The notes beneath the pieces were generated by a model. That model was given only the letters and a program-made list of their open reading frames with translations, was not told the origin of the DNA and made no database searches. A stretch of 64,000 nucleotides of DNA from Eunapius fragilis (lineage: Eukaryota > Porifera > Demospongiae > Spongillida > Spongillidae): positions 8,591,263 through 8,655,262 of the forward strand of contig OY811973.1 in the NCBI GenBank assembly GCA_963681505.1. The letters run 5' to 3'. Shown piece after piece: positions 4,856 through 53,000 of this stretch; the first letter of the stretch is position 1; each line of letters starts with the position of its first letter. The translations under genes were made by a program, and so were the position numbers.

Positions 4856-6665
4856 GCAGGTTTGCTGCATGGTTGTAATCACACACTGTAATAGTGTCAA
4901 AGTTGTAACACTGTTTATCTCAACTAATATTGCATTACGAGCTGAGTAATCACTCCTGAGGATGCAATTTTCTAGCATGATCTGAAATGTGAAATTGATT
5001 GAAGGAAATACATTTCCCATTGTTTCAATATCAAGGGATGAACCATCTGATACAGCATAATTGCATTCAAAAATCACATTAGCCCTATACCACAGAAGTA
5101 TTCAGAATGTTTGTGTGTGGCGAACAATAATCAGGAACTACGATAGTAGTTCCTATATAGGAATTGACCCGGGTCGTGAAATCATTTTTTTAAACGCGAC
5201 CCGTGTATAACTCGTGTACCGAGAAATGGATAGTGTTGCTCTTTGTTGCTATCAAACCATAAGGCAAAGACGACCGGTCAATTTAATGTTTTATTCCAGT
5301 TTTCGAACTGTTTGCTTTAAGAGAACAAAAAAGTTCGTGCTTTACCTCGTACCCAGGCCAAATCTTCTCGGTCGTCAACGTCGTCGTCGTCGTCTTCTTC
5401 TCGCGTGTGTGTAACTCCGGATAGGAATGGTTTTAAATAGCGCCAATTATACCAATCGCTTTAGAATCTCCTGGAAGGACATCAGATGTATGAATAAAGC
5501 ATAAAACTGACATACGTAATCATTACGTAATGCGTGGTGTTAAATAGAAGCGTTCCCATGGCGACATTTACGTATATTTAGAATTGCGCAAACAAAAGAG
5601 GAAAGCTAAACAGCGAGACCGACGAGTTAGAATTCCCCCGCGTTTCTTACAGTGATCCCAAACAAAAGTGGACGTCTGCTCGTGACGATAATGGTAACGG
5701 GGGGGGGGGGGGGGGGGGGGGGGGGGGCGGGGCACTTGCCAGTATTAATAATCGATAAAAAAAGGATAATAAAAAAATAGAGGAAACAAGTAAAGAAAAA
5801 CATTCTCTAACGAGAAAGTTGGTGGGATATAGGAATTGGAGGCAAAGGTGGTGTAAAAAGGAAGGGAGCAAGGTTTTTGGAAAAGAAAAATGAGACAAAA
5901 ATCCTATATTTAGCACTTTTGTTCTGTTACATGTACATGTGCTAAATATAGGATTTTGTCTCCTTTTTTCTTTCCAAAAATTGTTCCCTTCCTTTTTACA
6001 CTACCTTTGCCTCCAATTCCTATATCCCACCAACTTTCTCATTAGAGAGTGTTTTTCTTTACTTGTGAACATAGAATGCACCAACGAAAGCTATTGCACA
6101 AATTATAGATGCATTGTTAAGACTGATATCAAAGTTGGCACATTGATCTGATAGATCGATATTAGCACCACACCAGGCTTTATTTGTATAAAAGGTGCTA
6201 TCCTGTATTGTAAAAGCTTGATTTCTGTAAAAGGTGCTATCCTGCATTGTAACATTGATGTAGTATGTTTGATATAAGATAATAGATAATTCAGTTCCTT
6301 TATTGTTTTGTGGTGAATCTAATTTGAGCCATCAATAGAAGCATCTATACCCAAGCTGATAACAATTGCTGTAAAAATTATTTGATTACTTTCATTATAG
6401 TCCCGATATGGTTGATATTCAATAACCAAATTTCCTCCAGCTAAGGTATTGTCACCATTGCCATAATATAAAGTATTTTTTGCATATGCTTTTCCATTGC
6501 ATGTGAAATTTATTGTACTTGAACTGCTAAGTCCATTCTTTACAAACTGGTTGTTTCCAATGAACGATGACTTAATGATTTGTGAAAGCCCTAACAAATT
6601 TACTCCCAACAATCCATTTCCGCTACTATTTTGTATGGACACACCATCCATCGGGAAGTTGTACA
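4856..6665 (-). pseudogene. Truncated beta-helix gene fragment
   Basis: Two blocks, 4856-5131 and 6066-6665, align with the ectodomain of the neighbouring gene (about 3320-3580 and 3590-4160). They are separated by the Helitron-like element at 5132-6065. Recognisable peptides include FECNYAVSDGSS and SIQNSSGNGLLGVNLLGLSQ. No signal peptide or TM region remains, and frames are interrupted near 6200 by a small duplication. It is a partial tandem copy of the upstream gene that received an insertion. Removing the insert rejoins the flanks in good agreement with the intact gene. Confidence 0.85.
5132..6065 (+). mobile_element. Helitron-like foldback element B
   Basis: It begins TC immediately after A5131 and ends ACTTG before T6066, with no target-site duplication. 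The 5' end carries an 8-bp stem with a GATA loop (GGAACTAC/GTAGTTCC), followed by ATATAGGAATTGACC. The middle has a GTC/TTC-rich tract (5366-5402) and a run of more than 25 G near 5700. The 3' end is a hairpin (5787-6065) with arms of about 128 bp and a loop of roughly 20 nt. The arms show a few mismatches, so this copy looks older than the others. It is inserted in a beta-helix pseudogene and has no transposase. Confidence 0.8.
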
Positions 6666-8084
6666 AGGGTCTAATAAGAAGGGGAAATGTAATAGTCCTC
6701 ACAAACACAATGTCTTACAAATGTAGGACTCTTACATTTCCCCCTCTTATTAGAAGTGGGGTTCATCTACTGGTGTCTACTGGATGGAATGGTCCAAGAG
6801 GGGAGGGGGGAGGGAGGTGTCCTAATGTGGAAGTGTGGCAACTAAGGAAAAGGGAGCCGTCAAGAAAAATTCGGCCTGGGGGAAAAATCGGTGGTTCGGC
6901 AGGACCGAAAAAGATGCTAAAAATCATCCGGTTAATCCAAAATGGGTTCAGGCACATAAACACCCTGAGCACCCAGACATTAATCTTATTCTCTGTGAAA
7001 ATGGCTGATTCAAGTGAATAGAGAGATGCCAAAAGTGGGTCAGAAAATTGTTGTAAAAGGTACCTGAACAAGCACCTAATTCCTCAGGAGAGTTGTGGGG
7101 GATGGGACATGTCAGTGGACTCTTATTAGAATGGGATGTTCAGAACTGGTTTGATAAATCACACTAAAAACTGTTATGAGGTTGCCATGATGCAAAAACC
7201 TTTACATGTGATGTGTACATATGACCCTTCCCTACATGGTTCCAGCAATATGCACAAGCAGTAAATACATGTCCATGTAAACAGGGAAATAGTTAATGCA
7301 TGTTTATGCTTAAATGTGAGAGGTGTTGGATGTGTACCAACATCCTCTTTATAATGGAAGAAACAGCAACACTCATCACATGGTCATGTGCAGGGATTGG
7401 GATATGTGGGAGGGGCCAGAGGGATGGGAGTGCTTTATCACCATGTACCCTTCCTCCTCTCCTTCCCCTTACCTTCTCTCATTCCTCCTTCCCTCCCTCT
7501 AGTTATTGATGTATGCAGCATGGGGAAGTCATTATAAAAATATTCTTCTAGGCATGCAGTACCCTATTGCAGTGAATCATTATAATTCAAGGCATTCATC
7601 CCCTGTATATAATTATCATTGCTTATATTCACATACGTTTATTTACATGGTTATTGGAACAATTATCAAAGATATCAAATCTATAAAATACTGGGCATTG
7701 ATCACGTACAGATTGACAACAGCTCCTCAACATAAGCACCATATTGCATCACATGCAGCATGCGTTTTGCTTTTATATGCATCATTTATGAATTCACTGA
7801 GCATGCACAATGCATTTATAATTTATATAATTCATCTGCACTATAGCTCTCCCTTTATAACAAGTATACGTGGCTCCTCGAAATAAACGTACAATTGTTG
7901 TAAATAGTAAACCAGACACATTGTCATCCAGCTGAAAGAAAAACTAGGACAGACTTTGTTACAATCTCTGTGATCGAATAGCGGATCGTTTTTTGACAAG
8001 GCAGGACCATATTTGGCGGACGAATAATATCCGCCAGCAAGATATCGGTATGTGGTTACGGGTATTGTCTAGTAAGTATGGTTG
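6666..8084. other. Intergenic, no gene recognised
   Basis: A short foldback at about 6668-6763 has arms of the type CTAATAAGAAGGGGAAATGT, starting exactly where the beta-helix fragment ends. A related TCTTATTAGA motif recurs near 7120. Open frames in 6497-7886 show no recognisable domain, and the rest looks noncoding. Confidence 0.4.
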
Positions 8085-9689: not shown

Positions 9690-10494
9690 TTATATCCAGC
9701 ACTGATGAGACTTCGCCCGTTAGTTAAAATGAGGGTGGCTCAGCCAAATAGCAATGTGCGCCAACATATGTCCTAGCAGTACGGTATTCAAGCTCTAACA
9801 ACGGTTATATATTTTTGTGGTTTGAACACAGGCGTGAAATACCTTAGATATCAAAAGGACATTGCAAATCGGGAATATAATTTTTATGCGATATGCCTGC
9901 ATACTTAATGATTTTTGTTCTATGCTTTGTTAGATCACTATCGCCTTGCAAATCTTTCTATATTGCCTCTAAAAATAGGCTTTCTTCTCAAGATGCTTCT
10001 GTGACTATGATAACGAGTTAGTTCGATCAGTCATTTCACCACACTGTCACCATGTTTAAAGCACCACCATGTTAGTTTAATTAGATGCAGAGTAGTGCGT
10101 TTCTCACCTGTGTCAGGATATCAATTTCGGTATCGAACTGGAGTGCTTATGGTACAGTCAGCCAGCAAGTTCAGTCGCTTTAGTTTCTATACGTCCAAGG
10201 GGCGAGGTTGAGATCATAAATGGTATTGACACCAAGTTCATAACATGATTGTGAATTTGCCTAGACACACCTTTGATATTTTAGTGATCCGCAAAGCATT
10301 TCAGCTCAATGAAAATATTTCGCTATCGATAGTGTAAATAACGGTTTACTATATGAATATAATTGTATCACGTATTCATGAAGGTACCGTATTACGTCTG
10401 ATAAGGAAAATTACGCGTAAGGAAGCCCAAGCGATGCAGACGACTGCGACCTCTACCAGCTGTAAGTAATTTAATATTATGTCGCTTGCACGAG
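9690..10494 (+). promoter_or_regulatory. Upstream region of PHYH copy 1
   Basis: The region is conserved with 41530-42333 and, from 9895, with the relic at 8085-8650. No core promoter element can be assigned. A donor-like GTAAGT lies at about 10462 but is missing from unit 2, which lacks about 10 bp there. Confidence 0.4.
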
Positions 10495-11565
10495 ATGAAA
10501 TCCTTCCACGGTTCAGCCGTGTACACTGTGGTACCACCCCAGCCTCCCAAGAAGCCGGGACAGCTGGAACCTCACAAAGTGCAGGAGTTCTTCGACAAGG
10601 GCTTTGTGGTCCTCCCCTCGTTCTTCACGGCAGAAGACTTGGCCCCAGTCATCGAGGCCATTAACGACTGCGTCGACATCCTTGCCACAAAACTGTATAA
10701 CGCGGGAAAGATCAAGGACAGATGCGAAGGCGCGGGCTTCTACCAGCGGTTAACCCTTATCGAGCAGCAGTTCAGCGGGGCGGCGGTCCTACTGCACAAA
10801 ATGGGGTACCTGCCCCCAGCCTTCCAGAACCTCTGGTCCAACGAGAGACTCCTTAATGTCGTGGAACAGCTAATAGGACCGGACATAGCCGGCCATCCCG
10901 TTTGGAACCTCCGAACCAAGACGCCCCACAACCAGCAAACCACCGTCCCGTGGCATCAGGACAACGCCTACCTGGACCCTTCAGCCCTCCACACGCTCCA
11001 GCCCACGGCTTGGATCCCGCTCATCGACGCCAACATGGTTAACGGGTGCATGCAGGTGGCCTCTGGCGGGCATAAGGCGGGAATCACCGCCACCCACACC
11101 TGCTGCGCGGGAAACACATGGTACGTGGAACTCGACGAACTCGAGATGCAGAGAACACTGGGTGTCGACATGGCACGTGACCTAGTCACGTGCGAAGTTC
11201 CTTTTGGCGGCATCCTCTTACTGAACAACGCTGTCCCCCATCGCAGCCTAGAAAACCTGTCAAACCAGATAAGGTGGAGCCTGGACCTCCGCTGGCAGCG
11301 GCCAGACATGCCCAATGGGTTCTACAGCCTGAAGGAGAATGTGGTAATGAGAAGGGCTGGGGACCAGGATTACAAAATCGACTGGAGCAGATTTGCTGGA
11401 GTCAATCGCACGGAGCTACAGGCCAAGGCAGCTGGTCACAACAATGAGGATGAGTTTGACACCACCATCCATGGGCCGTGGATGAAGAGGTGGGAGATAG
11501 TACATCACAACAGGCACACACAGGGGCTTAAAGATGGCAGCTCTTGGCACGATCAAAAAGCTTGA
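10495..11565 (+). CDS. Phytanoyl-CoA dioxygenase family protein, copy 1
   Basis: An intronless frame encodes 356 aa. The PhyH fold of Fe(II)/2-oxoglutarate oxygenases is supported by the metal triad H154-x-D156 (PWHQDNAY) and H249 (VPHRSLEN), with R260 eleven residues later for 2-oxoglutarate, the usual PHYH spacing. Such enzymes hydroxylate fatty acyl-CoAs or small molecules; the substrate here is unknown. I see no clear peroxisomal signal. I start at ATG 10495 (MKSFHGS) because it is shared by both copies; in this unit the upstream ATG at 10435 runs into a stop. The gene is convergent with PTRHD1, with 160 bp between the stops. It differs from copy 2 at about six residues. Confidence 0.9.
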   Translation: MKSFHGSAVYTVVPPQPPKKPGQLEPHKVQEFFDKGFVVLPSFFTAEDLAPVIEAINDCVDILATKLYNAGKIKDRCEGAGFYQRLTLIEQQFSGAAVLLHKMGYLPPAFQNLWSNERLLNVVEQLIGPDIAGHPVWNLRTKTPHNQQTTVPWHQDNAYLDPSALHTLQPTAWIPLIDANMVNGCMQVASGGHKAGITATHTCCAGNTWYVELDELEMQRTLGVDMARDLVTCEVPFGGILLLNNAVPHRSLENLSNQIRWSLDLRWQRPDMPNGFYSLKENVVMRRAGDQDYKIDWSRFAGVNRTELQAKAAGHNNEDEFDTTIHGPWMKRWEIVHHNRHTQGLKDGSSWHDQKA

Positions 11566-12184: not shown

Positions 12185-15100
12185 GCGTGCGTGTGTGTGT
12201 GTGTGAGACCTGTGAATGTGATGCAGTGTAATTTGCCCTCTGTCAGGGGCTGCATACATTGATCCATATACACACAAATGTGAGTGTTAAGCCTCTCTAC
12301 TGTGCATTAGTACAATCCTCGAAAACCCATGTAAAAGCCTTATTCCTGTGACCCCTGATACATGTGTCTGTGCAATCTGAACAGTACCAGTTTCTACCAA
12401 CCTCAATGGGGGAATTGGGGTGGTTGTGGTGGTGGTGGTGGTGGTGGTGGTGGGGTTGTAAACCCCTTTGCATCAAATGCCCCTCTCCCTTTTTTCAATT
12501 TGGGTTGCTACTACAAAGGTTGATGTGCCCCTGAATTGCAATGTCAAATTGAGTAAACATAACAACCAAACAGCTTGCATGTGTTCAATATTGGCACGCC
12601 CAATCTCATATATACCCCCCTTGGGTATGACATGTATGCTGTTCACATATAAGTGCTATTGTGTACACACACAGTGAGTACACAGGTACACTTAAGTGCA
12701 TGTGCACACATGTAAAGGATCAGGCAAAGTCTTGTAAGAGTTTCCACTTACATGTACACATTCACATATCAGTGGATTGTTATTTCAGTGCACAGGGGTC
12801 TATGTTGTGTGAATGCAAAGTGTAATTACTCACATGCAAGGAAGTGACACGGCATAAATGTGACATTTCACCCATCTAATACTATAATTTCCAACGTATG
12901 TACGTACGTCCGCGTAACTCATTTATATACTCTGCCTAGCGCCTATTGGTTGCTAGGTATGTATGCATACCTAGCAACCAATAGGAACGACCACCTCCCA
13001 CAAACGTACATAGCAACGCGTACTTAGCGACCATACCTGCCACAAAACCTACATGCCTGTACAGGTAATCACATGGAGAAAGAATAAAAGCAATGCTATT
13101 GTGGTTCACTCTCAAGTCTCATCGTACAGACCGAGAACATGTAGCTACTATCTGACATAATAATTCCATGAAGTATTTGTATTGCGCGGGCATGTTATAG
13201 AGGTTGCGTAGTAACCGTATGCTAGAACAGGTGGTAGATTATATATGCAACATTGGGTAAAACAGCCGGTAAAAAAAAGAGGAGCTAGGAGGTAGACCAA
13301 CTGTTCATCTGGCAAATGAATAGCGAGACAAATAATCAACCTGTGATTTTTCATGGGGGCACGCTAGTAATTTTATATTAATATGGTGTTGATGTCACAT
13401 ATACCATATTTACAGTACATGTACTAATACATTTGTACCACATTTGATTAATGAACAATCTTTGTTTCAGTTAATTGGACCACATCACTATCTGATTAAG
13501 GATTAGTGGAGCAGCTCAACCCTGGGGACAAAGAACACTGACAAAGAACACGACAACGTTCCTAGCTCCAGATCAATGAAATATAAATAAACTACCACAG
13601 AACAAGTATGAAGTGGCAGTAAAAATATGGATGCTAGAAATTCTTCAATTTAGGATAAATGTTGAAATATTGGTCTTACATGTAGGACCTGACCTTGGAG
13701 ATATTAATTCAATATTGATTATTATACAATGCAATAGCTTCTGGGGGTTTGGTACGGTCTTCTGGGGGTTTGGTATGGTGGCCAGGTAGGTCTTCTGGGG
13801 GTTTGGTATGGTGGCCAGGTAGGTCTTCTGGGGGTTTGGTAGGTCACTCTCTCCATTGATGAGCTTCGAGCGCTTATTGCGTTGTGCAAAAGACACTACC
13901 TCTGTTTTGCTCAGAGCAAGACGCAATTAGTGTTTCGACTGTAAGCAATCACATGATTTTTCCTTATGCCTCAACAGCAATTAGCTCTAGAGCTCAAACC
14001 AAGTCGGCTCTGTGACACAAGGAGAACTATAGGATATAACGTCACATGCGTGTTTACCGTGCGACGTGACGGAGAATTTTGTAACGAAAGACACTCATTG
14101 GAAGGTAGCATACAAGTTTTCAACTTGGTAGGCCATATACTACACCACTGGAGATAAAACAAGACCATCGAAGTAATGCTCGCATACTTGCACATTGTCC
14201 AAAACGTTTCAGAGGTGTGTATAAAGCTTTCCTCTATATATACATAAGCAGCAAAGACATGTTGATCTTAGCATGGAAAATGGTGCATCCTTGGCTATCT
14301 CGGTCATGTGACATATGTGATTTCATCATATATCCCATAGTTCTCCATGAGACAAAGAGCCAACTCGGTTTGAGCTCGCAAAGGAAAAATCACGTGATTG
14401 TTTAGAGTTCATACTATAATTGTGTCATGGCATTGAGCAAAACAAGAGGCAGTGATTTGAGCACAACGAAAAAAGTGCTCAAAGCACAGCAGTCAAGGGG
14501 GCAACCTACTGGGCAAACATAGTTTAGGGACGAGTGCGCTTATTCCCCCCCCCCCCCCCCCCCCCCATCCCCGGGATTTGATACTGCTAATTAGTTCTTT
14601 AGAGGTGATTATTATTTAAAAAGGCAGTGGTTAACAATTGCATACTACAGCCATCACATGGTGAGACCAAAAGAGATCGTACATTTTGTGACGTATAGGA
14701 GTAAAAAAAAGCCTACATGATGTCATTACTACCATCATTGTCATGGAACCCCCTCCCCCCCCCCCCCCCACACCCCCAGGCTAGGGGCACTGAGAGGGAC
14801 CTGGTGACCTTAATTAAATCATTAGCCAGGCTGTATTTGAGTATTTGAGCTGAGGGTTATAACCGTGCACGCGTTGAATCCCTCCCCCCCCCCCCCCCCC
14901 CCCTCCCCCCCATTATAGCTAATTTAATATCTATGGGCAAATGCTGATCCCCGGGGGAGCTAGGGATATAACCAATGAAAGCCGAAATTGCCCGAAAACT
15001 AAAAGCGTGCAGCTCTCTAATTCCTAATAAAAACCCCCATCTTGCATGTGCAGTGATTAAGTGCATAATTTAGGGGGACACTACCTATAACTACACAAGC

Positions 15101-15528
15101 CAAATCTTAACAACCTGGTACAGGAATGACTGCTGAACGGATATGTTCCAGACTATTGCAACAACATTCATGTTGTCGCAACAATCTGATCTGGAACATA
15201 TCCGTTCAGCAGTCATTCCTGTACCAGGTTGTTAAGATTTGGCTTGTGTAACATTCCTGTGTCTGATTCTGAAACTAGTCCTGCTGAAGCATGTGCATAT
15301 TGTTTACGCACGTGATACATCACTTGCCTCTAACACTACTTTGTGCATGCGGTCGGCGTCCGTCAGATACTCACGAACGTTTGGGTCGTCCCTGAACGTG
15401 TGGAGGACGGCCGTCGTAGCGTGACATCCCTGCGCTATCATCGCTCCGATGGGCCACTTCTGTGCCCTCCAAAGGTCCCCGCGCACGGCAACGTACTGCA
15501 CTAGAACCACACTTTGCTTGGTCGCCAT
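11726..15528 (-). CDS. PTRHD1: PTRHD1-like peptidyl-tRNA hydrolase, copy 1
   Basis: Two exons: 15319-15528 (70 codons) and 11726-11896 (56 codons plus TAA), joined in phase 0 across a 3.4 kb GT-AG intron, giving 126 aa. Exon 1 has LVQYVAVRGDL, KWPIGAMIAQGCHA and MHKVVLEASD. Exon 2 has DHKLWIEQPENIPTC and ends KFKLFK. This is the full Pth2-superfamily core as in PTRHD1 (human about 140 aa), expected to act on peptidyl-tRNA or a related substrate. I start at ATG 15528 (MATKQSV); an ATG four codons upstream is possible. The gene is head to head with ABHD. Its intron holds microsatellites, foldbacks and a roughly 495-bp segment missing from copy 2. Confidence 0.85.
12131..12206. repeat. (TG)n microsatellite in the PTRHD1 intron
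   Basis: Long TG/CA run with a few GC interruptions; the shorter equivalent is at 43971-44022. Reading frames through it give His/Thr runs that are not genes. A (TGG)n run follows at 12420-12452. Confidence 0.9.
12876..13370. other. About 495-bp segment present only in unit 1, with a palindrome
   Basis: Flanking sequence (ATTTCACCCAT, then TAATTTTATAT) is contiguous in unit 2 at about 44685-44700, so this is an insertion here or a deletion there. It contains a 44-nt near-perfect palindrome at 12951-12994 (CCTATTGGTTGCTAGGTATG arms). No terminal repeats are evident. Small minus-strand frames look spurious. Confidence 0.6.
15093..15249. mobile_element. Foldback in the PTRHD1 intron, unit 1
   Basis: Inverted arms of about 60 bp start ACACAAGCCAAATCTTAACA and end near GGAACATATCCGTTCAGCAG, around a loop of about 35 nt. 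It is conserved at 46453-46610, so it predates the duplication. It lies about 70 bp inside the intron from exon 1 of PTRHD1 and could fold in the pre-mRNA. Confidence 0.8.
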
Positions 15529-17361: not shown

Positions 17362-18235
17362 TCGGAAGTTTCGTTAGAAACTTCCATATAGGATTTGACC
17401 CCGACTATGAATGTCATTAAAAAAACGCGACCCGTCTGTAACAACACTCCCGACGATCGGATCGTGTAGCTTGTTTTAGCAATCGATCTAGAAGTCAAAA
17501 ATGAGTAGTTTCGTTTTTGTTTCATGTCGCTGAACCGCGTGGTTGTTGAGAACAAGAGTGTACTGCCCGTCCTCGTACCCAGTCTCGGAACAAGGGGCGG
17601 GTCGTCTTCTCATTCTTCTTCTCCTTCTTGACAACGCATAACTCAGGACAGGAACATTTCTAAGCGATGAAAATTTCACCAATAGCTTCAGAATCGGCTG
17701 GAGGACTCGCTTTTATATAATATAATACTTTGATAAACAATCGACTATCAGCCTCCTATGTCTTGTTAGTCTCGTACCCAGACCGTCTATGACGTAAGCG
17801 ATTATCGCTGTAAACAGTATAATCACTACGTCCATACGTATGGACGTAGTGATTATACTGTTTACAGCGATAATCGCTTACGTCATAGACGGTCTGGGTA
17901 CGAGACTAATGTCTTGTATAATTAAATGGGTATGAAAAAAAATAAAGAAAACAAGCAAATAAAAACATTCTCTACGAGAAAGTTGGTGGGATATAGGATT
18001 TGATTATGACATTGGTGGTGTAAAAAGCAAGGAAACAAGGTCTTATCAGAAGGGAAAATGTCATAGTCCTATATTTAGCACACAAACAACACATGCCCTA
18101 GAAATGTGCTAAATATAGGACTATGACATTTTCCCTTCTGATAAGACCTTGTTTCCTTGCTTTTTACACCACCAATGTCATAATCAAATCCTATATCCCA
18201 CCAACTTTCTCGTAGAGAATGTTTTTATTTACTTG
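17362..18235 (+). mobile_element. Helitron-like foldback element A (unit 1)
   Basis: Starts TC after A17361 and ends ACTTG before T18236, with no target duplication. The empty site in unit 2 is at 54533/54534. The 5' hairpin is GGAAGTTTC-GTTA-GAAACTTCC, followed by ATATAGGATTTGACC. The 3' hairpin (17952-18235) has arms of about 130 bp with a single mismatch around a 22-nt loop. A separate palindromic MITE is nested at 17767-17908. The element is closely similar to 52129-52798, so the two are recent copies. Confidence 0.85.
17767..17908. mobile_element. Perfect palindromic MITE with 9-bp target duplication
   Basis: 142 bp, essentially all palindrome, beginning TAGTCTCGTACCCAGACC and ending with its complement. 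It is flanked by ATGTCTTGT at 17758-17766 and 17909-17917. It is absent from the sister element at 52129. A 9-bp duplication suggests Mutator-like mobilisation, which is an inference. Confidence 0.9.
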
Positions 18236-18645
18236 TCTTAAAATGGCTCTAATGTGCCATAGATTTACATGATATGACAACAGGGGTGACTCAAAGCCAT
18301 ATATTGCAGTTGTTTTAAAAAATAACCAAGTACATGTCTGATCAACTGGTTTTGTTACGTTCAACACGACATATGCATATGTTAGATTGGAACGAATAAT
18401 AATTAATCTGCCTTCACTTTAATATCCTCACTTTGAAAGGTTGATTTCACTCACAACATTGAGCCAGCCAATGAGTAGCAACCCTTACCCATCCAGTTAT
18501 TTCACTCAATAGTTTTTCCCACTTCAATTAAAGATAATGATAAGGGTTAGATGAAGCCATAAACTATTAATACTGCTGATTGGAAAAATGGATCACAAAT
18601 ACGTGTATGTGACTGTGTTCAGCCCTTATGGGCTTATAATTTTAC
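18236..18645. other. Intergenic, shared with unit 2
   Basis: Matches about 54550-54955 in unit 2. No gene is seen. Confidence 0.5.
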
Positions 18646-19387
18646 AAGGTTTTGGGAAAAGAAAAATGAGACAAAAATCTTATATTTAGTACTTCTTTTG
18701 GTTCTGTTACATTTACACGTGCTAAATATTCGATTTTGTCTCATTTTTCTTTTCCCAAAACCTTGTTCCCTTCCTTTTTACACCACCTTTGCCTCCAATT
18801 CCTACATCCCACCAACTTTCTCGTTAGAGAATGTTTTTCTCCTCTATTTTTTCATTATCATTTTTTACCGATTATTAATACTGGCAAGTGCCTCCCCCCC
18901 CCCCCCCCCCCCCCTCGCGGGAGAATTCTAACCCGTCTGTCTGCTCTCCTCTTTTGTTAGTACAATTCTAAACACGTAAATGTTGCCATGGGAACGCTTC
19001 AATTCAACACTAGGCATTACGTAATGATTGCGTATATCAATTTTATGCTTTATTCATACATCTGATACTTGAAGATGTCCTTCCAGGAGATTCTAAAGCG
19101 ATTGGTATAATTGGCGCTCTTTAAAACCATTTCTATTCTGAGTTATACTCACCCGAGAAGAAGACGACGAAGAAGATTTGGCCTGGGGACAAGGTAAAAC
19201 ACGAACTTTTTTTGTTCTCTTAAAGCGAACAGTTTGAAGACTGGAATAATACATTAAAATGACCGTCTTTGCATTCTGGTTCGATAGCAATAAAGAGCCT
19301 TTTCTTGGTACTCGAGTTATACGCGGGTGGCGTTTTTTTCACGACCCGGGTCAATTCCTATATAGGAACTACTATCGTAGTTCCTGA
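18646..19387 (-). mobile_element. Helitron-like foldback element D, reversed and truncated
   Basis: In reverse orientation it starts TC at 19387 after an A, with the same 5' hairpin as element B (GGAACTAC/GTAGTTCC). Internal sequence matches B throughout, including the CTTCTTC-type tract and a C/G run (18894-18914). One hairpin arm and the loop are complete; the second arm stops near 18646, so the last roughly 90 bp of the 3' end are missing. The unit 2 equivalent at about 54950 lacks the insert. Confidence 0.75.
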
Positions 19388-24032: not shown

Positions 24033-27000
24033 ATGGCAAAGCGACGTCAAACTGATTCTGCACTCTGTGATTGCCAGATGTGTAAAGGAAGGTTTTCCTA
24101 CTGCTACACGACAATTAAAAGGCACCGACGGCTGTATGGTCTTGAAAATACAAGTCTACCGGCAGGCACACAAGCATCGTTTGCTTCAGAAGGTACATGT
24201 ACAAACATACATACGTACTGTTAGACTTAGAGTAACCAGCAGTACTGTTAGACATAGAGTAACCAACTAATATCCTGTGTTACGGGTGCTATTATATATC
24301 ACAGTCTTGTCTGGATATTATATTAGCTTATGCCAATATATAATTATTTACATAACATTCATGCATGTAGGAAAGAGTACATGTATCTATATTTTTATAC
24401 CCAATGTCCACCATAACCTACAATAACATACAGGACCCACAATATGGATGTTTTACTTTTATTGGGATTCAAAGAATGAAATTAATATTTAGTCCATGTG
24501 CCAACCAATCCCTTATGTTCATATTACAGAGCAGTTACAGAACAGCGGGGTAATGGTGAGAAATTGGATGGATTATTGTCATTTTTAATATCATTTAAAT
24601 ATGTTACTGTTTACAAGTTAACTTTGCTGCCATTCATACATGGTGAATGTAAGCATGCTTATTTTCTATATGCATTAGATGTGAATTGCCAAGACGAAGA
24701 AATGCTAACACCAAGTACCACATCTCATGTATCTGGTGAGTGTCAATGTAGCCTCTTCATCTCAGGCTAATTTATAATGTGTAGATGTAAATTATGTTAG
24801 TGAAGATGAGAAGGAAGAAGTACAATCCAGTGACTCAGGTATACTTTGTATGCATATAGGAATGTGGATCTTTGAAAAATAAGGATAATTCTTTTTAGAT
24901 GAATACTTTGAACGGTTTCCAGATGATTATCATGAGTGTTGCAAGTCAGGTAAATTCACTTATTAGGATTAATATAAACACATATTTTAAATGCACACGT
25001 ATAAACAGATGAACTTGATTGTGGTGATATAAATCAGCCTGTAAGCAGTGGTTCATCTGTTGTGGAGGCAACTGATGGTGATGGTGATGGTGATGATGTT
25101 GATGATAATAATTCTAATCATGATGATGATCATGAAGTTGATGGTATTGGTAATGGTGATATTGATGACACTGAGCCAGTGACTGAGGATAGGAGTTTAG
25201 TTAGAGAAACAGTTACAGTGCAAAATAAAAGAATTACATTAAAATTGATTTGTACCTTCCTTGTTGAAATTTATATCAAGCACAAATTGTCACAATCCGC
25301 CATGCTATGTATTTGCAACTTGATTTACATTGTGCTGAAGATCGTAGCAAATCCTATGTACCATGTTTTTCCAACTACTCTTTATGGGGTTTTCAAGAAT
25401 GCTACAGTATGTGACATTAAAAAGGAGAAATACGTTGTGTGTCCTAATGATAGCTGCAACCATCTTTATAGTTTGGAAGAGGCACAAATGCTCAAAGTTT
25501 GCAATGTAATAACATTTGGCTATAAATGTGGAAAAGAACTTGGATACATTAAAAAAACTTTCTCACAACAGAAGTGGCATCCATATAAGGTATACTACTT
25601 TATTGCACCTTCTGTGTGGCTAAAAACTATGTTTCATAAGAAAGAATTCCGTGACCTGGTTTTAAGTCCACATGAATCAACTTTGGGTATTCAGGATGTA
25701 CTGTATATGATGCAGATATGTGGAAAACCTTTTTATTCAATCCTCTTGATAATACAGAAGCCTTTCTTTCTGACCCCAAAAATATTGCACTTTTGCTCAA
25801 CATTGACTGGTTTAAGCCATATAGGCGATCCGAATACAAAGTTTCAGCTGTCATGTTGACCATACTAAACTTACCTCGTGAAGAACGTTTTAAAGACAAG
25901 TGGACTATGATTGTAGGCATCATTCCTGGTCCTACTGAGCCAAAGGGCAATATTAACACTTATCTCAAGCCACTTGTAGATGATTTATTGTCTTTGTGGG
26001 GTGGCCTATCTTTGCACCCAGATGGAAGTATTATCAAAGCATGTTTATTAGGGATTTCAGCTGACTTACCAGCTTTAAGAAAAGTAACTCAATTTTTAGG
26101 CCACAAAGCCAATTTGGGCTGTTCAAGATGTACTTTCAGTGCTGAGAGAGAGGCATCATCAAAAGGTTCAACGGGTAATATGAGTTATTATACAAAAATT
26201 ATGGCACCATCTAGAACTAAAGATCAAGTACTACAACAAGGTACTGAGTTTTGTCAAGCGAAAACTAAAGCAGAATCTTTAGAAATTCAAAAAAGGAATG
26301 GTGTACGCTATAGTGAACTTCTTAGACTGCCATATTATGACTTAGTCAGGATGTCAATAACAGATCCCATGCATACTATATGGCTGGGAATGGTTCGTAA
26401 TGAAATTAAACTCTGTATTTCCAAGCTCACAAAATCACAGTTGACTCGATTCAACAGTCGCATCAAAAATATTACTGTTCCATATGATGTTGGACGTCTT
26501 CCCTCTGATTGGAATGATCAGAGTGATTTCAATGGAATGACAGCACAGCAGTGGAAAAACTTCGCCCTGATTTATGCCAGACCCTGCTTTTCCGGTCTTC
26601 TGCCACAAAATGCTTATAAAAGCATATGCCTACTGTGCGAAATAGTTGAACTCATTACAAAGCCAGTATTCAATGATGATGACAATTTAAAATTGTATCG
26701 ACTTTTGCATGAACACCATAAAATTTTTGAAACTGTCTATGGCAAGTGGCAAGTGTCCGTTAACTACCACATGGCATTACATATACCAGAAGTTATTGCG
26801 AAACTGTCTATGGCAAGTGGCAAGTGTCCGTTAACTACCACATGGCATTACATATACCAGAAGTTATTGCTGATTATGGACCACCCCAAGTATATTGGTG
26901 CTTTTTTTATGAACGAATGAATGGGATGCTTTCTGATATTTCCTGTAACAATAGAAACATTGAGCTACAAATACTCAATAGAATCTTTCAAAGGTTTACC

Positions 27001-38736: not shown

Positions 38737-38891
38737 TCAGTCATGCACCCGCTGAATTATAGTGCACTTTGCAAAAAGAGGTAAGAATTTAATAATATAC
38801 TCTGTGTGGATTCACGTGTAAACTTGCTTGAAAAAAGAATAAGGTAAAAATTTTTAAAATCATTCTCTCAGTCTCTGTCACGTACATGTAG

Positions 38892-39425
38892 ATGTCAGCT
38901 GAAGACCTTACGGGGTTTTTTAATCAAGAGGGGTCGGAGGAGGAAGAGGACGACATACATCCTCCGACTCCTCTCCCCTTCACCCCGCCACCTCCAGAAG
39001 CCCCGCCACTCCTACAACCACCAGCAGCACTGCCCCCACCACCACTACCAGCAGCGCTACCCCCGCCGGCACCACCAGCGCTGCCCCCGCCGGCACCACC
39101 AGCGCTGACCCCGCCGGCACCACCAGCGCTACCCCCGCCTGCACCACCAGCGCTGCCCCCGCCGGTGTTCCTGGCGGAACAACAAGCAGGGATAATCCCG
39201 CCACCACCACCACCAGCTGTGCTCCCGCCGGTACCACCGCCGCCTGTGCTCCCTCCCTGGCCTGCATGGCCACTGCCACCCTGGCAGAATGCAGCATGGC
39301 GGGGAGGCCGGGGAGGAGGACGTCCCCGCAGGAGACGAGGGCGCGGGCAAGGACAATTAACAATAAACACTACTAATTCATATAATTATAATTATTATTA
39401 TTTAAGTTATTTATTATTGCATTAA
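38892..39425 (+). CDS. Acidic, proline-rich, RG-rich protein in element C
   Basis: 177 aa from ATG 38892. Three zones: an acidic N-terminus (EEEEDD), a central run of about 100 residues of Pro/Ala with PPAPPAL heptads, and a C-terminal RGGRGGGRPRRRRGRGQGQ tail followed by a Tyr/Asn-rich end. It is low complexity and probably disordered; RG-rich tails often bind RNA. The frame is open in a repetitive GC-rich tract, and the antisense frames are shadows. It may be the N-terminal part or first exon of a larger element protein. No family is assigned. Confidence 0.5.
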   Translation: MSAEDLTGFFNQEGSEEEEDDIHPPTPLPFTPPPPEAPPLLQPPAALPPPPLPAALPPPAPPALPPPAPPALTPPAPPALPPPAPPALPPPVFLAEQQAGIIPPPPPPAVLPPVPPPPVLPPWPAWPLPPWQNAAWRGGRGGGRPRRRRGRGQGQLTINTTNSYNYNYYYLSYLLLH

Positions 39426-40005
39426 GAGATAAAGGGGATCGTCCAAATTATATATGCTCTTCCTACATTTCATCGACGGTGAAAAAAAACCTATGAAACA
39501 AGTAAATAAAAACATTCTCTAACGAGAGAGTTGTTGGTATATAGGATTGACCAATGGTGGTGTAAAAAGCACGGAAACAAGAGTGACAGAAATTTTACTG
39601 GAAAATTGAAATAGGCCTATATTTAGCACACAATATAACACATGCCTGAGTAATGGACTAAATATAGGCCTATTTCAATTTTCCAGTAAAATTTCTGTCA
39701 CTCTTGTTTCCGTGCTTTTTACACCACCATTGGTCAATCCTATATACCAACAACTCTCTCGTTAGAGAATGTTTTTATTTACTTGTGATAAATAGATATT
39801 AGCACCACATTGAGCATTTCTATAAAAAGTGCTATGTTGTATTGTAGTATTGATATAGTACATTTTCTGAAATAGCAAAAGACAGTTCCAATGTAATTTT
39901 CTGGAGAGTTGGAATTACACATATCATCAAAGACTCATCGTAATTCGTTTAATTATTGTCTGAGTATGAAACTGCCAATACAGAGTGAATCATTATTGTG
40001 TCTAC

Positions 40006-41529: not shown

Positions 41530-42333
41530 CCAGCACTGAAGAGACTTCGCCCGTTAGTTAAAATGAGGGTGGCTCAGCCAAATAGCAATGTGCGCCAACA
41601 TATGTCCTAGAAGTATGGTATTCAAGCTCTAACAACGGCTATATATTTCTGTGGTTTGAACACAGGCGTGAAATACCTTAGATATTAAGAAGACATTGCA
41701 AATCGCGTATATAATTTTTATGCGATATGCCTGCATACTTAATGATTTTTGTCCTATGCTTTGTTAGATTACTATCGCTTTGCAAATCTTTCTATATTGC
41801 CTCTAAAAATAGGCTTTCTTCTCAAGATGCTTCTGTGACTATGGTAACGAGTTAGTTCGATCAGTCATTTCACCATACTGTCACCACGTTGAAAGCACCA
41901 TGTTAGTTTAATTGGATGCAGAGTAGTGCGTTTCTCACCTGTGTCAGGATATCAATTTCGGTATCGAACTGGAGTGCTTATGGTACAGTCAGCCAGCAAG
42001 TTCAGTCGCTTTAGTTTCTCTACGTCCAAGGGGCGAGGTTGAGATCATAAATGGTATTGACACCAAGTTCATAACATGATTGTGAATTTGCCTAGACACA
42101 CCTTTGATATTTTAGTGATCCGCAAAGCATCTCAGCTCAAAGAAAATGTTTCGCTATCGATATTATAAATTATGATTACCGGTACTATACGAATTCATTG
42201 TATCACGTATTCATGAAGGTACCGTATTACGTCAGATAAGGAAATTTACGCGTAAGGAAGCCCAAGCAGGTAATATCCAGCGATGCAGACGACTGCGACC
42301 TCTACTAATTTAATATTATGTCGCTTGCACGTG
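41530..42333 (+). promoter_or_regulatory. Upstream region of PHYH copy 2
   Basis: Collinear with 9690-10494. It lacks the 10 bp with the donor-like GTAAGT, so the ATG at 42283 is in frame with the gene here only. Confidence 0.4.
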
Positions 42334-43404
42334 ATGAAATCCTTCCACGGTTCAGCCGTGTACACTGTGGTACCACCCCAGCCTCCCAAGAAGCCGGGAC
42401 AGCTGGAACCTCACCAAGTGCAGGAGTTCTTCGACAAGGGCTTTGTGGTCCTCCCCTCGTTCTTCACGGCAGAAGACTTGGCCCCAGTCATCGAGGCCAT
42501 TAACAACTGCGTCGACATCCTTGCCACAAAACTGTACAACGCGGGAAAGATCAGGGACAGATGCGAAGGCGCGGGCTTCTACCAGCGGTTAACTCTTATC
42601 GAGCAGCAGTTCAGTGGGGCGGCGGTCCTACTGCACAAAATGGGGTACCTGCCCCCAGCCTTCCAGAACCTCTGGTCCAACGAGAGACTCCTTAATGTTG
42701 TGGAACAGCTAATAGGACCGGACATAGCCGGCCATCCCGTTTGGAACCTCCGAACCAAGACGCCCCACAACCAGCAAACCACCGTCCCGTGGCATCAGGA
42801 CAACGCCTACCTGGACCCTTCAGCCCTCCACACGCTCCAGCCCACGGCTTGGATCCCGCTCATCGACGCCAACATGGTTAACGGGTGCATGCAGGTGGCC
42901 TCTGGCGGGCATAAGGCGGGAATCACCGCCACCCACACCTGCTGCGCGGGAAACACATGGTACGTGGAACTCGACGAACTCGAGATGCAGAGAACACTGG
43001 GTGTCGACATGGCACGTGATGTAGTCACGTGCGAAGTTCCCTTTGGCGGCATCCTCTTACTGAACAACGCTGTCCCCCATCGCAGCCTAGAGAACCTGTC
43101 AAACCAGATAAGGTGGAGCCTGGACCTCCGTTGGCAGCGGCCAGACATGCCCAATGGGTTCTACAGCCTGAAGGAGAATGTGGTGATGAGAAGGGCTGGG
43201 GACCAGGATTACAAAATCGACTGGAGCAGATTTGCTGGAGTCAATCGCACGGAGCTACAGGCCAAGGCAGCTGGTCACAACGATGAGGATGAGTTTGACA
43301 CCACCATCCATGGGCCGTGGATGAAGAGGTGGGAGATAGTACATCACAACAGGCACACACAGGGGCTTAAAGATGGCAGCTCTTGGCACGATCAAAAAGC
43401 TTGA
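42334..43404 (+). CDS. Phytanoyl-CoA dioxygenase family protein, copy 2
   Basis: 356 aa, intronless, with the same iron and 2-oxoglutarate ligands as copy 1 (H154, D156, H249, R260). It differs from copy 1 by about six substitutions, such as K/Q in LEPHQVQEFF, D/N in INNCVD, K/R in GKIRDR and L/V in MARDVVT. None touches the active site. ATG 42283 would extend the protein by 17 residues, but this extension does not exist in copy 1, so I prefer 42334. The gene is convergent with PTRHD1 copy 2 (161 bp between stops). Confidence 0.9.
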   Translation: MKSFHGSAVYTVVPPQPPKKPGQLEPHQVQEFFDKGFVVLPSFFTAEDLAPVIEAINNCVDILATKLYNAGKIRDRCEGAGFYQRLTLIEQQFSGAAVLLHKMGYLPPAFQNLWSNERLLNVVEQLIGPDIAGHPVWNLRTKTPHNQQTTVPWHQDNAYLDPSALHTLQPTAWIPLIDANMVNGCMQVASGGHKAGITATHTCCAGNTWYVELDELEMQRTLGVDMARDVVTCEVPFGGILLLNNAVPHRSLENLSNQIRWSLDLRWQRPDMPNGFYSLKENVVMRRAGDQDYKIDWSRFAGVNRTELQAKAAGHNDEDEFDTTIHGPWMKRWEIVHHNRHTQGLKDGSSWHDQKA

Positions 43405-44007: not shown

Positions 44008-46889
44008 TGCGTGTGTGTGTGAGACCTGTGAATGTGATGCAGTGTAATTTGCCCTCTGTCAGGGGCTGCATACATTGATCCATATACACACAAATGTGCG
44101 TGTTAAGCCTCTCTACTGTGCATTAGTACAATCCTCGAAAACCCATGTAAAAGCCTTATTCCTGTGACCCCTGATACATGTGTCTGTGCAATCTGAACAG
44201 TACCAGTTTCAATGGGGGAATTGGAGTGGTGGTGTGGTGGTGGTGGTGGTGGTGGTGGTGGTGGTGGTGGTGGTGGTGGGGTTGTAAACCCCTTTGCCCC
44301 TCTCCCTTTTTTCAATTTGGGTTGCTACTACAAAGGTTGATGTGCCCCTGAATTGCAATGTCAAATTGAGTAAACATAACAACCAAACAGCTTGCATGTG
44401 TTCAATATTGGCACGCCCAATCTCATCTATACCTCCCTTGGGTATGACATGTATGCTGTTCACATATAAGTGCTATTGTGTACACACACAGTGAGTACAC
44501 AGGTACACCTAAGTGCATGTGCCACACATGTAAAGAATCAGGCAAAGTCTTGTAAGAGTTTCCACTTACATGTACACATTCACATATCAGTGGATTGTTA
44601 TTTCAGTGCACAGGGGTCTATGTTGTGTGAATGCAAAGTGTAATTACTCACATGCAAGGAAGTGACACGACATAAACGTGACATTTCACCCATAATTTTA
44701 TATTGTTGATGTCACATATATCATATATGACATATATACATTTATATATATGTGACATATATCATGTCACATATTTACAGTACATATACTAATACATTTG
44801 TACCACATTTGATTAATGAACTATCTTTGGTTCAGTTAATTAGACCACATCACTATCTGATTAAGGATTAGTGGAGCAGCTCAACCCTGGGGACAAAGAA
44901 CACTGACAAAGAACATGACAACGTTCCTAGCTCCAGATCAATGATACATAAATAAACTACCACAGAACAAGTATGAAGTGGCAGTAAAAATATGGATGCT
45001 AGAAATTCTTCAATTTAGGATAAATGTTGAAATATTGGTCTTACATGTAGGACCTAGCTGACCTTGGAGATATTAATTCATTATTGATTATTATACAATG
45101 CAATAGATTCTGGGGGTTTGGTACAGTCTTCTGGGGGTTTGGTATGGTGGCCAGGTAGGTCTTCTGGGGGTTTGGTACAGTGGCCCGGTAGGTCACTCTC
45201 TCCATCGATGAGTTTCGAGCGCTTATTGCGTTGTGCAAAAGACACTACCTCTGTTTTGCTCAGAGCAAGACGCAATTAGTGTTTCGACTGTAAGCAATCA
45301 CGTGATTTTTCCCTATGCCTCAACAGCAATTAGCTCTAGAGCTCAAACCAAGTCGGCTCTGTGACACAAGGAGAACTATAGGATATAACGTCACATGCGT
45401 GTTTACCGTGCGACGTGTCGGAGAATTTTGTAACGAAAGACACTCATTGGAAGGTAGCATACAAGTTTTCAACTTGGCAGGCCATATACTACACTGGAGA
45501 TAAAACAAGACCATCGAAGTAATGCTCGCATACTTGCACATTGTCCAAAACGTTTCAGAGGTGTGTATAAAACTTTCATGTATATATACATAAGCAGCAA
45601 AGACATGTTGATCTTAGCATGGAAAATGGTGCATCCTAGTGGCTATCTCGGTCATGTGACATATGTGATTTCATCATATATCCCATAGTTCTCCATGAGA
45701 CAAAGAGCCAACTCGGTTTGAGCTCGCAAAGGAAAAATCACGTGATTGTTTAGAGTTGATACTATAATTGTGTCATGGCATTGAGCAAAACAAGAGGTAG
45801 TGATTTGAGCACAACGAAAAAAGTGCTCAAAGCACAGCAGTCAAGGGGGCAACCTACTGGGCAAACATAGTTTAGGGACGAGTGCGCTTATTCCCCCCTT
45901 CCCCCCCCCCCCCCCCCCATCCCCGGGATTTGATACTGCTAATTAGTTCTTTAGAGGTGATTATTATTTAAAAAGGCAGTGGTTAACAATTGCATACTAC
46001 AGCCATCACATGGTGAGACCAAAAGAGATCGTACATTTTGTGACGTATAGGAGTAAAAAAAAGCCTACATGATGTCATTACTACCATCATTGTCACGGAA
46101 CCCCCTCCCCCCCCCCCCCACACCCCCAGGCTGGGGGCACTGAGAGGGACCTGGTGACCTTAATTAAATCATTAGCCAGGCTGTATTTGAGTATTTGAGC
46201 TGAGGGTTATAACCGTGCACGCGTTGAATCCCTCCCCCTCCCCCCCCCCCCCCCCCCCCCCCCTCCCCCCCATTATAGCTAATTTAATATCTATGGGCAA
46301 ATGCTGATCCCCGGGGGAGCTAGGGATATAACCAATGAAAGCCGAAATTGCCCGAAAACTAAAAGCGTGCAGCTTTCTAATTCCTAATAAAAACCCCCAT
46401 CTTGCATGTGCAGTGATTAAGTGCATAATTTAGGGGGACACTACCTATAACTACACAAGCCAAATCTTAACAACCTGGTACAGGAATGACTGCTGAACGG
46501 ATATGTTCCAGACTATTGCAACAGCATTCATGTTGTTGCAATCTGATCTGGAACATATCCGTTCAGCAGTCATTCCTGTACCAGGTTGTTAAGATTTGGC
46601 TTGCATGTGTAACATTCCTGTGTCTGATTCTGAAACTAGTCCTGCTGAAGCATGTGCATATTGTTTACGCACGTGATACATCACTTGCCTCTAACACTAC
46701 TTTGTGCATGCGGTCGGCGTCCGTCAGATACTCACGAACGTTTGGGTCGTCCCTGAACGTGTGGAGGACGGCCGTCGTAGCGTGACATCCCTGCGCTATC
46801 AGCGCACCGATGGGCCACTTCTGTGCCCTCCAAAGGTCCCCGCGCACGGCAACGTACTGCACTAGAACCACACTTTGCTTGGTCGCCAT
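43566..46889 (-). CDS. PTRHD1: PTRHD1-like peptidyl-tRNA hydrolase, copy 2
   Basis: Exon 1 is 46680-46889 and exon 2 is 43566-43736, again 210 and 171 nt, phase 0, GT-AG, giving 126 aa. It is nearly identical to copy 1, with one visible change (M/L in KWPIGALIAQGCHA). The stop codon is TAG instead of TAA because of one base. The intron is about 480 bp shorter than in unit 1. ATG 46889 is 115 bp from the divergent ABHD start. Confidence 0.85.
43971..44022. repeat. (TG)n microsatellite in the PTRHD1 intron, unit 2
   Basis: Shorter than the unit 1 copy. A longer (TGG)n run follows at 44225-44279. Confidence 0.9.
46453..46610. mobile_element. Foldback in the PTRHD1 intron, unit 2
   Basis: Equivalent of 15093-15249, same arms. 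The right arm carries a 4-bp CATG insertion near its outer end. Confidence 0.8.
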
Positions 46890-50000: not shown

Positions 50001-53000
50001 ATACATGTTTAATTTGCCATCCCACCCACTGTATTTCTCATCTCTGTGATGTCTTGTGGGTGCATCGGTGGGCGGGGCATCTTGGTGTACAAAATGTCCC
50101 CTCATGCGCACACACACATGCACACAGACATGCACACCACACATGCACACAGACATGCACACACACACGCATACACACAGACATGCACACACACATGCAC
50201 ACAGACATGCGCACCACACATGCACACAGACATGCACACCACATGTACACACAGACATGCACACACACATGTACACAGACATGCACACATACACATGCAC
50301 ACAGACATACACACCCACACATGCACACAGACATGCACACACACATGTACACAGACATGCACACATACACATGCACACAGACATGCACACCCACACATAC
50401 ACACAGACATGCGCATACACAATCAACTCTTCTTAGGAAATATGTGCATGCACTCCTTTCCATTAAAAAATAGAAGCCAGTGTTACCCCGCTTTCTACAT
50501 TTCAGCAACTACATGTGTGTGGCTTGGTACTTACAGCTACATGTGTGTGGCTTGGTACTTACAGTTACATGTGTGTGGCTTAGTACTTACAGCTACATGT
50601 GTGTGGCTTGGTACTTACAGCTACATGTGTGTGGCTTGGTACTTACAGCTACATGTGTGTGGCTTGGTACTTACAGCTACATGTGTGTGGCTTGGTACTT
50701 ACAGCTACATGTGTGTGGCTTGGTACTTACAGCTACATGTGTGTGGCTTGGTACTTACAGCTACATGTGTGTGGCTTGGTACTTACAGCTACATGTGTGT
50801 GGCTTGGTACTTACAGCTATATGTGTGTGGCTTGGTACTTACAGCTACATGTGTGTGGGGGCTTCGTATTTAATTGGGTATCTCTATCCCAACATCCTCC
50901 AGACCCCACGGCTGTACTGTGGAAGTGACATCACCGACCTTATAACGGTGGTGGACCATATTGTGACCACACTTCCTGAGGCGCCCCTCATGGGCGTGGC
51001 TGTCTCCATGGGCAGGTAACCATGGGTCGTTGCCGTTATTGTGGTCAACTGACCAAGGGAGGGGTGGAGCTAGAGAGAGGCTGGGGGGACCAGGGGGTGC
51101 GTTTGTGCGGGCATGCTTGTCTGTAGGTAGCCTCCTCCCCAGACCCACATGCCACAATGATTGTCCCAGTGAACAGTACAATCATGCCACGTGCATACAA
51201 TTTGTACTGTTTGCAGCAATCCCCCATTACGCAATGTGGACATGCGGATGTGAGTAATTAGTAGGGCAGATGCCATCTGCATGTCTTGCATTCATTCAAC
51301 ACTGTTATCTTCACAATCTCCCCTCCACATCTTCTTCCCCACACATTCCCCTATTCCTTCCTCACACCTCCCCTATTCCTTCCTCACACCTCCCCTATAC
51401 CTTCCTCACACCCTCCCCTTACCTTCCTCACACCCTCCCCTAACCTCCCTCATACCCTCCCCTATACCTTCCGCACACCCTCCCCTTACCTTCCTCACAC
51501 CCTCCCCTATTCCTTCCTCATACCCTCCCCTATTCCTTCCTTACACCCTCCCCTATACCTTCTTCACACCTCCTTACCTTCCTCACACCTCCCTTAAACC
51601 TTCCTCACACTTCCCCTTACCTTCCTCACACCCTCCCCATACCTTCCTCATACCCTTCCCTTACCTTCTTCACACCCACACCTTCCTCACAACCTCCCAC
51701 CTCTCCACACCTTCCCACACCTTCCTCACACCCTCTCCTACACCTTCACACTCTCCCACTCCTACCTTCACACCAGCATGATGATGATCAAGTACATTGC
51801 GGAGTGCAAACGTCGCGGCCTTCGCTGCCCTCTCAAGGCGGCCATGTTGGTCTCCGTGGTCTGGAACCTGCCCATTGCCGAAAGGAACATGAACAAGACA
51901 TTCAACAGACTCACCCTCAACAGGCATCTCTGCAAGCTGATCCACACCATTCTCAGGAAGTATGTGCGGGGTGGGTGTGGTTTTGGCGTGGTATTTATGG
52001 ATGGTGCAAGGTGGGTGTGGTATTTGCCTATCCTCACATAATAAACTGCTCTGTGTATGGGATTGTTGCCTTAAGGATCCTAACACGCATGTTCCAGGAA
52101 AGGACCATGCACTGAAATGTATGGCTAATCGGAAGTTTCGTTAGAAACTTCCATATAGGATTTGACCCCGACTATGAATGTCATTAAAAAAACGCGACCC
52201 GTCTGTAACAACACCTCCCGACGATCGGATCGTGTAGCTTGTTTTAGCAATCGATCTAGAAGTCAAAAATGAGTAGTTTCGTTTTTGTTTCATGTCGCTG
52301 AACCGCGTGGTTGTTGAGAACAAGAGTGTACTGCCCGTCCTCTTACCCAGTCTCGGAACAAGGGGCGGGTCGTCTTCTTCTTCTTCTCCACCTTCTTCTT
52401 GGCAACGCATAACTCAGGACAGGAACATTTCTAAGCGATGAAAATTTCACCAATAGCTTCAGAATCGGCTGGAGGACTCGCTTTTATATAATATATGAAA
52501 AAAAATTAAGAAAACAAGTAAATAAAAACATTCTCTACGAGAAAGTTGGTGGGATATAGGATTTGATTATGACATTGGTGGTGTAAAAAGCAAGGAAACA
52601 AGGTCTTATCAGAAGGGAAAATGTCATAGTCCTATATTTAGCACACAAACAACACATGCCCTAGAAATGTGCTAAATATAGGACTATGACATTTTCCCTT
52701 CTGATAAGACCTTGTTTCCTTGCTTTTTACACCACCAATGTCATAATCAAATCCTATATCCCACCAACTTTCTCGTAGAGAATGTTTTTATTTACTTGTT
52801 ACACATTCATTGCTTTTATAATGATAAACAGTTCAATTCTCAGTACATGAGTCATTTTGAACATTTCAAACTTCAAGAATATATCAAATGTGTTAGCTTC
52901 CTTTCCTCAGCAACATTCCTGCATGACATAAACAGGTTTATTCATGTATGCATAACATGAATAAACACACATGCACACAAAGCACACACACCAAGCCCAC

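Follow-up and report, generated by a model that had tools for sequence, protein, structure and literature searches.

Elements of a Helitron-like family in Eunapius fragilis end in a palindrome whose two arms appear to be kept matched within a copy, with some changes in one arm mirrored in the other, and whose loop has been inverted repeatedly. Three of these elements in the window (the whole 64,000-nucleotide stretch of DNA analysed), A, A' and B, are short non-autonomous elements that resemble rolling-circle transposons in behaviour and in which the 3' terminator has grown into a palindrome of 270-300 bp that reaches the very end of the element. We believe, with a probability of roughly 0.6, that arm copying and loop flipping both occur at the transposition stage of a rolling-circle element with a palindromic 3' terminator. 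The features in the window are as follows.

17362..18235, + strand: element A, whole (A|TC ... CTTG|T, 874 bp), with borders taken from copies with unrelated flanks
17362..17385, + strand: 5' end of A with a short hairpin (9-bp stem, 4-nt loop)
17767..17908, no strand: nested perfect palindrome in the body of A, with the 9-bp direct repeat ATGTCTTGT on both sides; absent from A'
17952..18235, + strand: 3'-terminal palindrome of A, loop at about 18083-18104
52129..52798, + strand: element A', without the nested palindrome; terminal palindrome at 52515-52798
5131..6065, + strand: element B; terminal palindrome at 5787-6065
38760..39785, + strand: 3' part of element C; terminal palindrome at 39499-39785; the upstream stretch recurs directly before C palindromes elsewhere
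18644..19387, - strand: B-like copy with a truncated palindrome; the lower coordinate is approximate

The element starts with TC and ends with CTTG. Where the 5' end could be located, the base before TC was A in all A copies (51/51) and all B copies (19/19); the base after CTTG was T in 54/54 A copies and in 28/29 B copies. Among the 70 copies with both ends, spanning 663-922 bp (A) or 790-1100 bp (B), the two flanks matched over 2 nt in 29, over 3 nt in 3, over 4 nt in 3 and over 5 nt in 1; as so few matches exceeded 2 nt, there is no consistent target duplication. In all of 30 loci, as matched, the base ahead of the palindrome's CAAG was A and the base behind its CTTG was T, so that both palindrome edges read CTTG|T, the right one on the top strand and the left one on the bottom strand. 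At the other end of the element, A and B each carry a small hairpin that differs in stem sequence and is self-paired in both; the start of B is of the TCAG type. The 5' end and the palindrome have in common the motif ATATAGGA(T/A)TTG, in a form specific to the subfamily (A and B). Each element's palindrome contains, in both arms, the motif found behind its own 5' hairpin (ATATAGGATTTG in A, ATATAGGAATTG in B), and ATATAGGATTTGA in A and ATATAGGAATTG in B, 3' of the 5' hairpin, are present inverted in the right arm and also direct in the left arm. We looked for the 5' end of a C element and did not find it. At 38892-39422, C has an open frame rich in proline and arginine, which gave no Pfam match, together with a TATA-like box; the region 38760-39498, found again right before C palindromes elsewhere, is perhaps a captured gene piece. 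Two peptides, one near C and one near the locus L081, had no Pfam match.

Palindrome detection recovered the four terminal hairpins of A, A', B and C where they had been placed from the letters alone, each 279-287 bp long. Their arms are self-paired as had been described: 135 nt and 99% complementary in A (17948-18082/18105-18239), 133 nt and 100% in A' (52513-52645/52668-52800), 129 nt and 100% in C (39498-39626/39658-39786), and 93% over the first 91 nt in B (5786-5876/5976-6066). Folded as single-stranded DNA, the palindrome of A (~284 bp) is predicted to form one hairpin, interrupted by a single mismatch and closed by a 22-nt loop, at -150.9 kcal/mol, compared to a mean of -22.9 kcal/mol (sd 3.7) for 200 shuffles (z -35). 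Short blocks recur in the window far above expectation, with 8 occurrences of the terminal block (at most 3 mismatches) vs 0.01 expected and 11 of the middle block vs 0.30 expected, some of these 11 outside the four hairpins. The blocks are not strictly conserved in every hairpin: in B, the terminal block deviates by 1-2 mismatches and the middle block by 2-3.

A search of the genome (218.9 Mb in 24 contigs, the window lying on the contig labelled C3) with an exact pattern for two middle blocks found at least 1465 palindromes, and the reversed-pattern control found 0. This number is a lower bound, since the pattern misses known copies, notably of the B and C types: of 92 extracted palindromes it misses 4/54 A, 16/29 B, 4/4 C and 4/5 others. 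An exact pattern for the 5' ends of A and B matched at 602 and 610 places. At C3:2405170-2405600, where a palindrome was expected, the expected terminal block was absent. The 92 palindromes are those left of 99 extracted after 7 that repeated a place or shared flanks were dropped (A 54, B 29, C 4, other 5). The 54 A copies comprise 29 picked for palindrome identity and 25 from other loci. B copies were picked by palindrome similarity to B (30 loci cut, best 40 scored of 2104 candidates), which biases B arm divergence downwards; the re-pairing tests described below compare the same copies with each other. A distant palindrome, G (L048:2815-3115), is ~0.6-0.7 identical to the others and has the same CAAG...CTTG plan with near-perfect arms.

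Both arms of 14 representative palindromes were aligned, and identity was scored at aligned sites. The two arms of one copy were 0.95-1.0 identical in 11 of the 14 and 0.89-0.91 identical in three (window B, K and D), whereas left arms of A, B, C and G were 0.61-0.83 identical between subfamilies. In the arm tree, arms grouped by subfamily, and left and right arms did not form two separate lineages; resolution within subfamilies is poor, with arms intermingled in the groups C/E/K and D/J, partly from letters at the loop edge. E (L013) differed from C at five stem positions, and each difference was present in both E arms. The original prediction that the blocks between the conserved ones differ completely was too strong, as the variable blocks align with intermediates: apart from small indels, 72-83% of aligned sites agree between the left arms of A, B and C, which are linked through H, F, D and J (0.88-0.91 to A), so that there is no total replacement between subfamilies. 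Gradual divergence with homogenisation suffices for these differences.

The central point of the prediction, copying of one arm from its partner, is supported by the two comparisons it had proposed, identity within against between copies and a search for mirrored substitutions; the outcome that it had named as a refutation did not appear. Among the 29 B copies, each arm agreed with its own partner at 0.973 of sites, compared to a mean of 0.957 (sd 0.0015, maximum 0.9636) over 2000 re-pairings. Minor states common to both arms of a B copy occupied 35 cells vs 9.0 expected (maximum 20), with 14 of the 35 coming from one column. The 54 A copies carried 5 mirrored substitutions (one each in L032, L042 and L054, two in L041), at arm positions 21, 61, 62, 64 and 68, vs 19 single-arm substitutions and 2 single-arm indels; all 5 fall among the 25 copies not picked for palindrome identity. 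By simple arithmetic, independent recurrence would yield far fewer than one mirrored A change. The mirrored change of L042 was in no other copy among the best 40 scored of 989 candidates, and those of L041 in no other among the best 40 scored of 1168, although C1:4844613 resembled L041 slightly more than the consensus copies did, by about one mismatch. Arm homogenisation with mirrored changes is thus observed in this family. Copying is not constant, as single-arm changes outnumber mirrored ones (19 vs 5 in A) and arms differ in 87 cells of the B copies. In the B sample, biased as noted, arm divergence showed no relation to body branch length (Spearman 0.20, p 0.29). We also considered that the arms drift independently, which the B re-pairings, the shared minor states and the arm tree rule out.

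Among copies with identical arms, the loop was found in either orientation. Relative to the body it was inverted in 6 of 54 A copies (48:6) and in 11 of 29 B copies (18:11, two of the 29 oriented by eye from the flanks). The body tree of B needs at least nine changes of loop orientation, 5 of them forced by well-supported branches and with no clustering; that of A, a weak tree with two long rows, needs 6, of which 2 are forced. Loop inversion is therefore recurrent.

Rolling-circle transposition uses one strand, according to part of one report (PMC5876387). We propose that the displaced single strand would fold the palindrome into one long hairpin (~130 bp) accessible to mismatch repair. Arm mismatches would then be repaired with one arm as template, or one arm would be resynthesised from the other, and new copies would begin with matched arms. 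Resolution of the folded end may sometimes leave the palindrome reversed. A cut by the terminating nuclease at either hairpin base is conceivable, because CTTG|T is present at both edges on the proper strand.

A possible, clearly less probable account is that the host maintains palindromes in general: arms would be corrected and loops inverted in the chromosome after insertion, by template switching, cruciform repair or arm-arm recombination, with no role for transposition. Other palindromes speak for it. The nested palindrome of A occurs in forms of 144, 135 and 126 nt, and the 126-nt form, in one copy (L040), has a 9-nt deletion mirrored in both arms. An unrelated palindromic repeat in the window (15092-15250 and 46456-46603) has a relative at L087:2383-2538; the arms of 15092-15250 and of this relative match at 61/61 positions each, yet the two are identical to each other at only 40/59. 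Arm copying may thus not be special to the element end or to transposition. The tested mirrored changes also look private to one copy, which fits change after insertion as well. Upkeep of inverted repeats is described for Caenorhabditis (PMC1803023), where they are actively maintained, and discussed for nematomorph mitochondria (PMC6649704), in the parts of these reports available to us; in both, arms stay matched while the sequence changes, though those repeats are not ends of mobile elements, unlike the palindromes here. Against host maintenance, the A palindromes are mostly intact and identical, although young copies would be so under any model. If general palindrome repair is the cause, this genome would be a good natural assay of it. 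In the nested palindrome a 9-nt deletion was present in 12 copies and lay in the same arm in all of them, so no flip was seen, a result that is not significant at the A rate of 11%. An empty form of the nested site was found at one locus (L026 = L059).

An unlikely variant is that the palindrome serves as a self-priming replication end. The displaced strand would fold back, and its 3' CTTG-OH would prime second-strand synthesis along the body. The nuclease would then re-cut the mirror-image CTTG|T at the other hairpin base, and the terminus would be regenerated by copying with its loop flipped. If true, a eukaryotic rolling-circle transposon would be resolving its terminus in a parvovirus-like cycle, which would also provide a route to the second strand.

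We consider it very improbable that selection alone, acting because both arms bind the same nuclease or must keep pairing, preserved the match through independent compensating mutations. The conservation of short blocks across subfamilies and the subfamily-specific motif common to the 5' end and the palindrome would fit such selection, whereas a near letter-perfect match over ~130 bp and mirrored changes in single non-coding copies of the young A family argue against it, and loop inversion is left unexplained. Selection would gain from mirrored changes confined to the conserved blocks; those of A lie at the arm positions given above. Hardly credible, finally, is a separate palindromic MITE sitting by chance at the 3' end: other palindromic repeats do occur in the window and loci, but the right edge of the palindrome is the element end, followed by unrelated DNA starting with T, its left edge joins the A-rich tail of the body, and no duplication spans it, and we rejected this candidate on the border evidence.

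How the single strand of a rolling-circle transposon becomes double is an open question on which the family bears. With self-complementary ends of ~130 bp, flipping loops and well over a thousand copies, it provides a sequence record of arm copying, and since mirrored changes and flips can be counted per insertion, the second-strand question becomes testable by sequencing alone. The terminal palindrome of parvoviruses exists in two orientations (flip and flop). Our palindromes resemble it in being terminal and in occurring in two orientations, and we claim no relationship. A primed, circovirus-like route to the second strand is discussed by the authors of the Helraiser work in the portion of the text that we draw on (PMC5876387).

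We describe the family as Helitron-like rolling-circle elements with an unusual terminus; the comparisons that follow draw on parts of the cited reports. Likeness to canonical Helitron1 (Helraiser/Helibat1) lies in the 5' TC, the A/T insertion without target duplication and a hairpin at the 3' end (PMC4778049). Canonical elements end in CTRR, with a short hairpin 10-12 nt before the 3' end (PMC4778049, PMC5148889), whereas here CTTG was found in 30/30 loci and that hairpin arrangement is lacking: Helraiser has a 19-bp palindrome 11 nt before its CTAG end (PMC4778049), and the ~284-bp palindrome described here includes the end, CTTG. The Helitron2-type FoHeli elements of Fusarium resemble the family in having hairpins at both ends and a TCAG-type start as in B (PMC5148889). 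They may also be alike in a 5' motif that returns in inverted form close to the 3' end (PMC5148889), although in A and B this motif is present directly in the left arm as well. FoHeli1/2 differ in their ATTTT end and in a hairpin 30-40 bp inside it, and the part of that report available to us makes no mention of a long terminal palindrome (PMC5148889). Helentrons/HINE/DINE-1 likewise reach high copy numbers as non-autonomous rolling-circle elements and carry hairpins; their 3' stem loops are short and their target is TT, in contrast to the A|T insertion seen here (PMC4067079). In a literature search of open-licence papers, we recognised no description of a Helitron whose loop flips or whose terminus is a long palindrome.

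Candidate partner genes are tied to the palindrome family by position. The genome has 91 matches to the Helitron_like_N profile, many in long open frames, and 11 of them are on contig C1. Three of the C1 matches are plus-strand genes with a 1977-aa frame, starting at 1405918, 1777642 and 11855656; each has a palindrome downstream, at 6807, 6801 and 6802 bp respectively, and the three palindromes have the same inner spacing (3/3, the third pair coming from a search made after the first two). The chance of a palindrome within a given 2 kb is 1-2%. For the other eight C1 matches there was none at ~6.8 kb among the palindromes listed, which beyond 6.3 Mb are only those of exact spacing. Two further 1977-aa frames are at C13:5075911 and C22:1330292. 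The B palindrome at L081 lies ~2.0 kb downstream of a Helitron_like_N remnant on the same strand. Four other places contain a 100-nt stretch taken from the far end of the L081 flank, and three of them (on C6, C5 and C19) are 0.5-1.7 kb downstream of Helitron_like_N matches. The A- and B-type 5' ends listed include none close to two of the 1977-aa genes (at 1.41 and 1.78 Mb), whose own 5' ends may therefore be of another type. A Helitron gene within the window was sought and discarded, as the 20 open frames scanned, of 38 listed, gave no Helitron match. At L032:1301-2560, an A element has inserted into a B-type palindrome, and the junction has TA-repeat letters. The window also codes for two PhyH-domain open frames and one Transposase_21 (tnp2) frame (10405-11562, 42274-43401 and 25676-26917).
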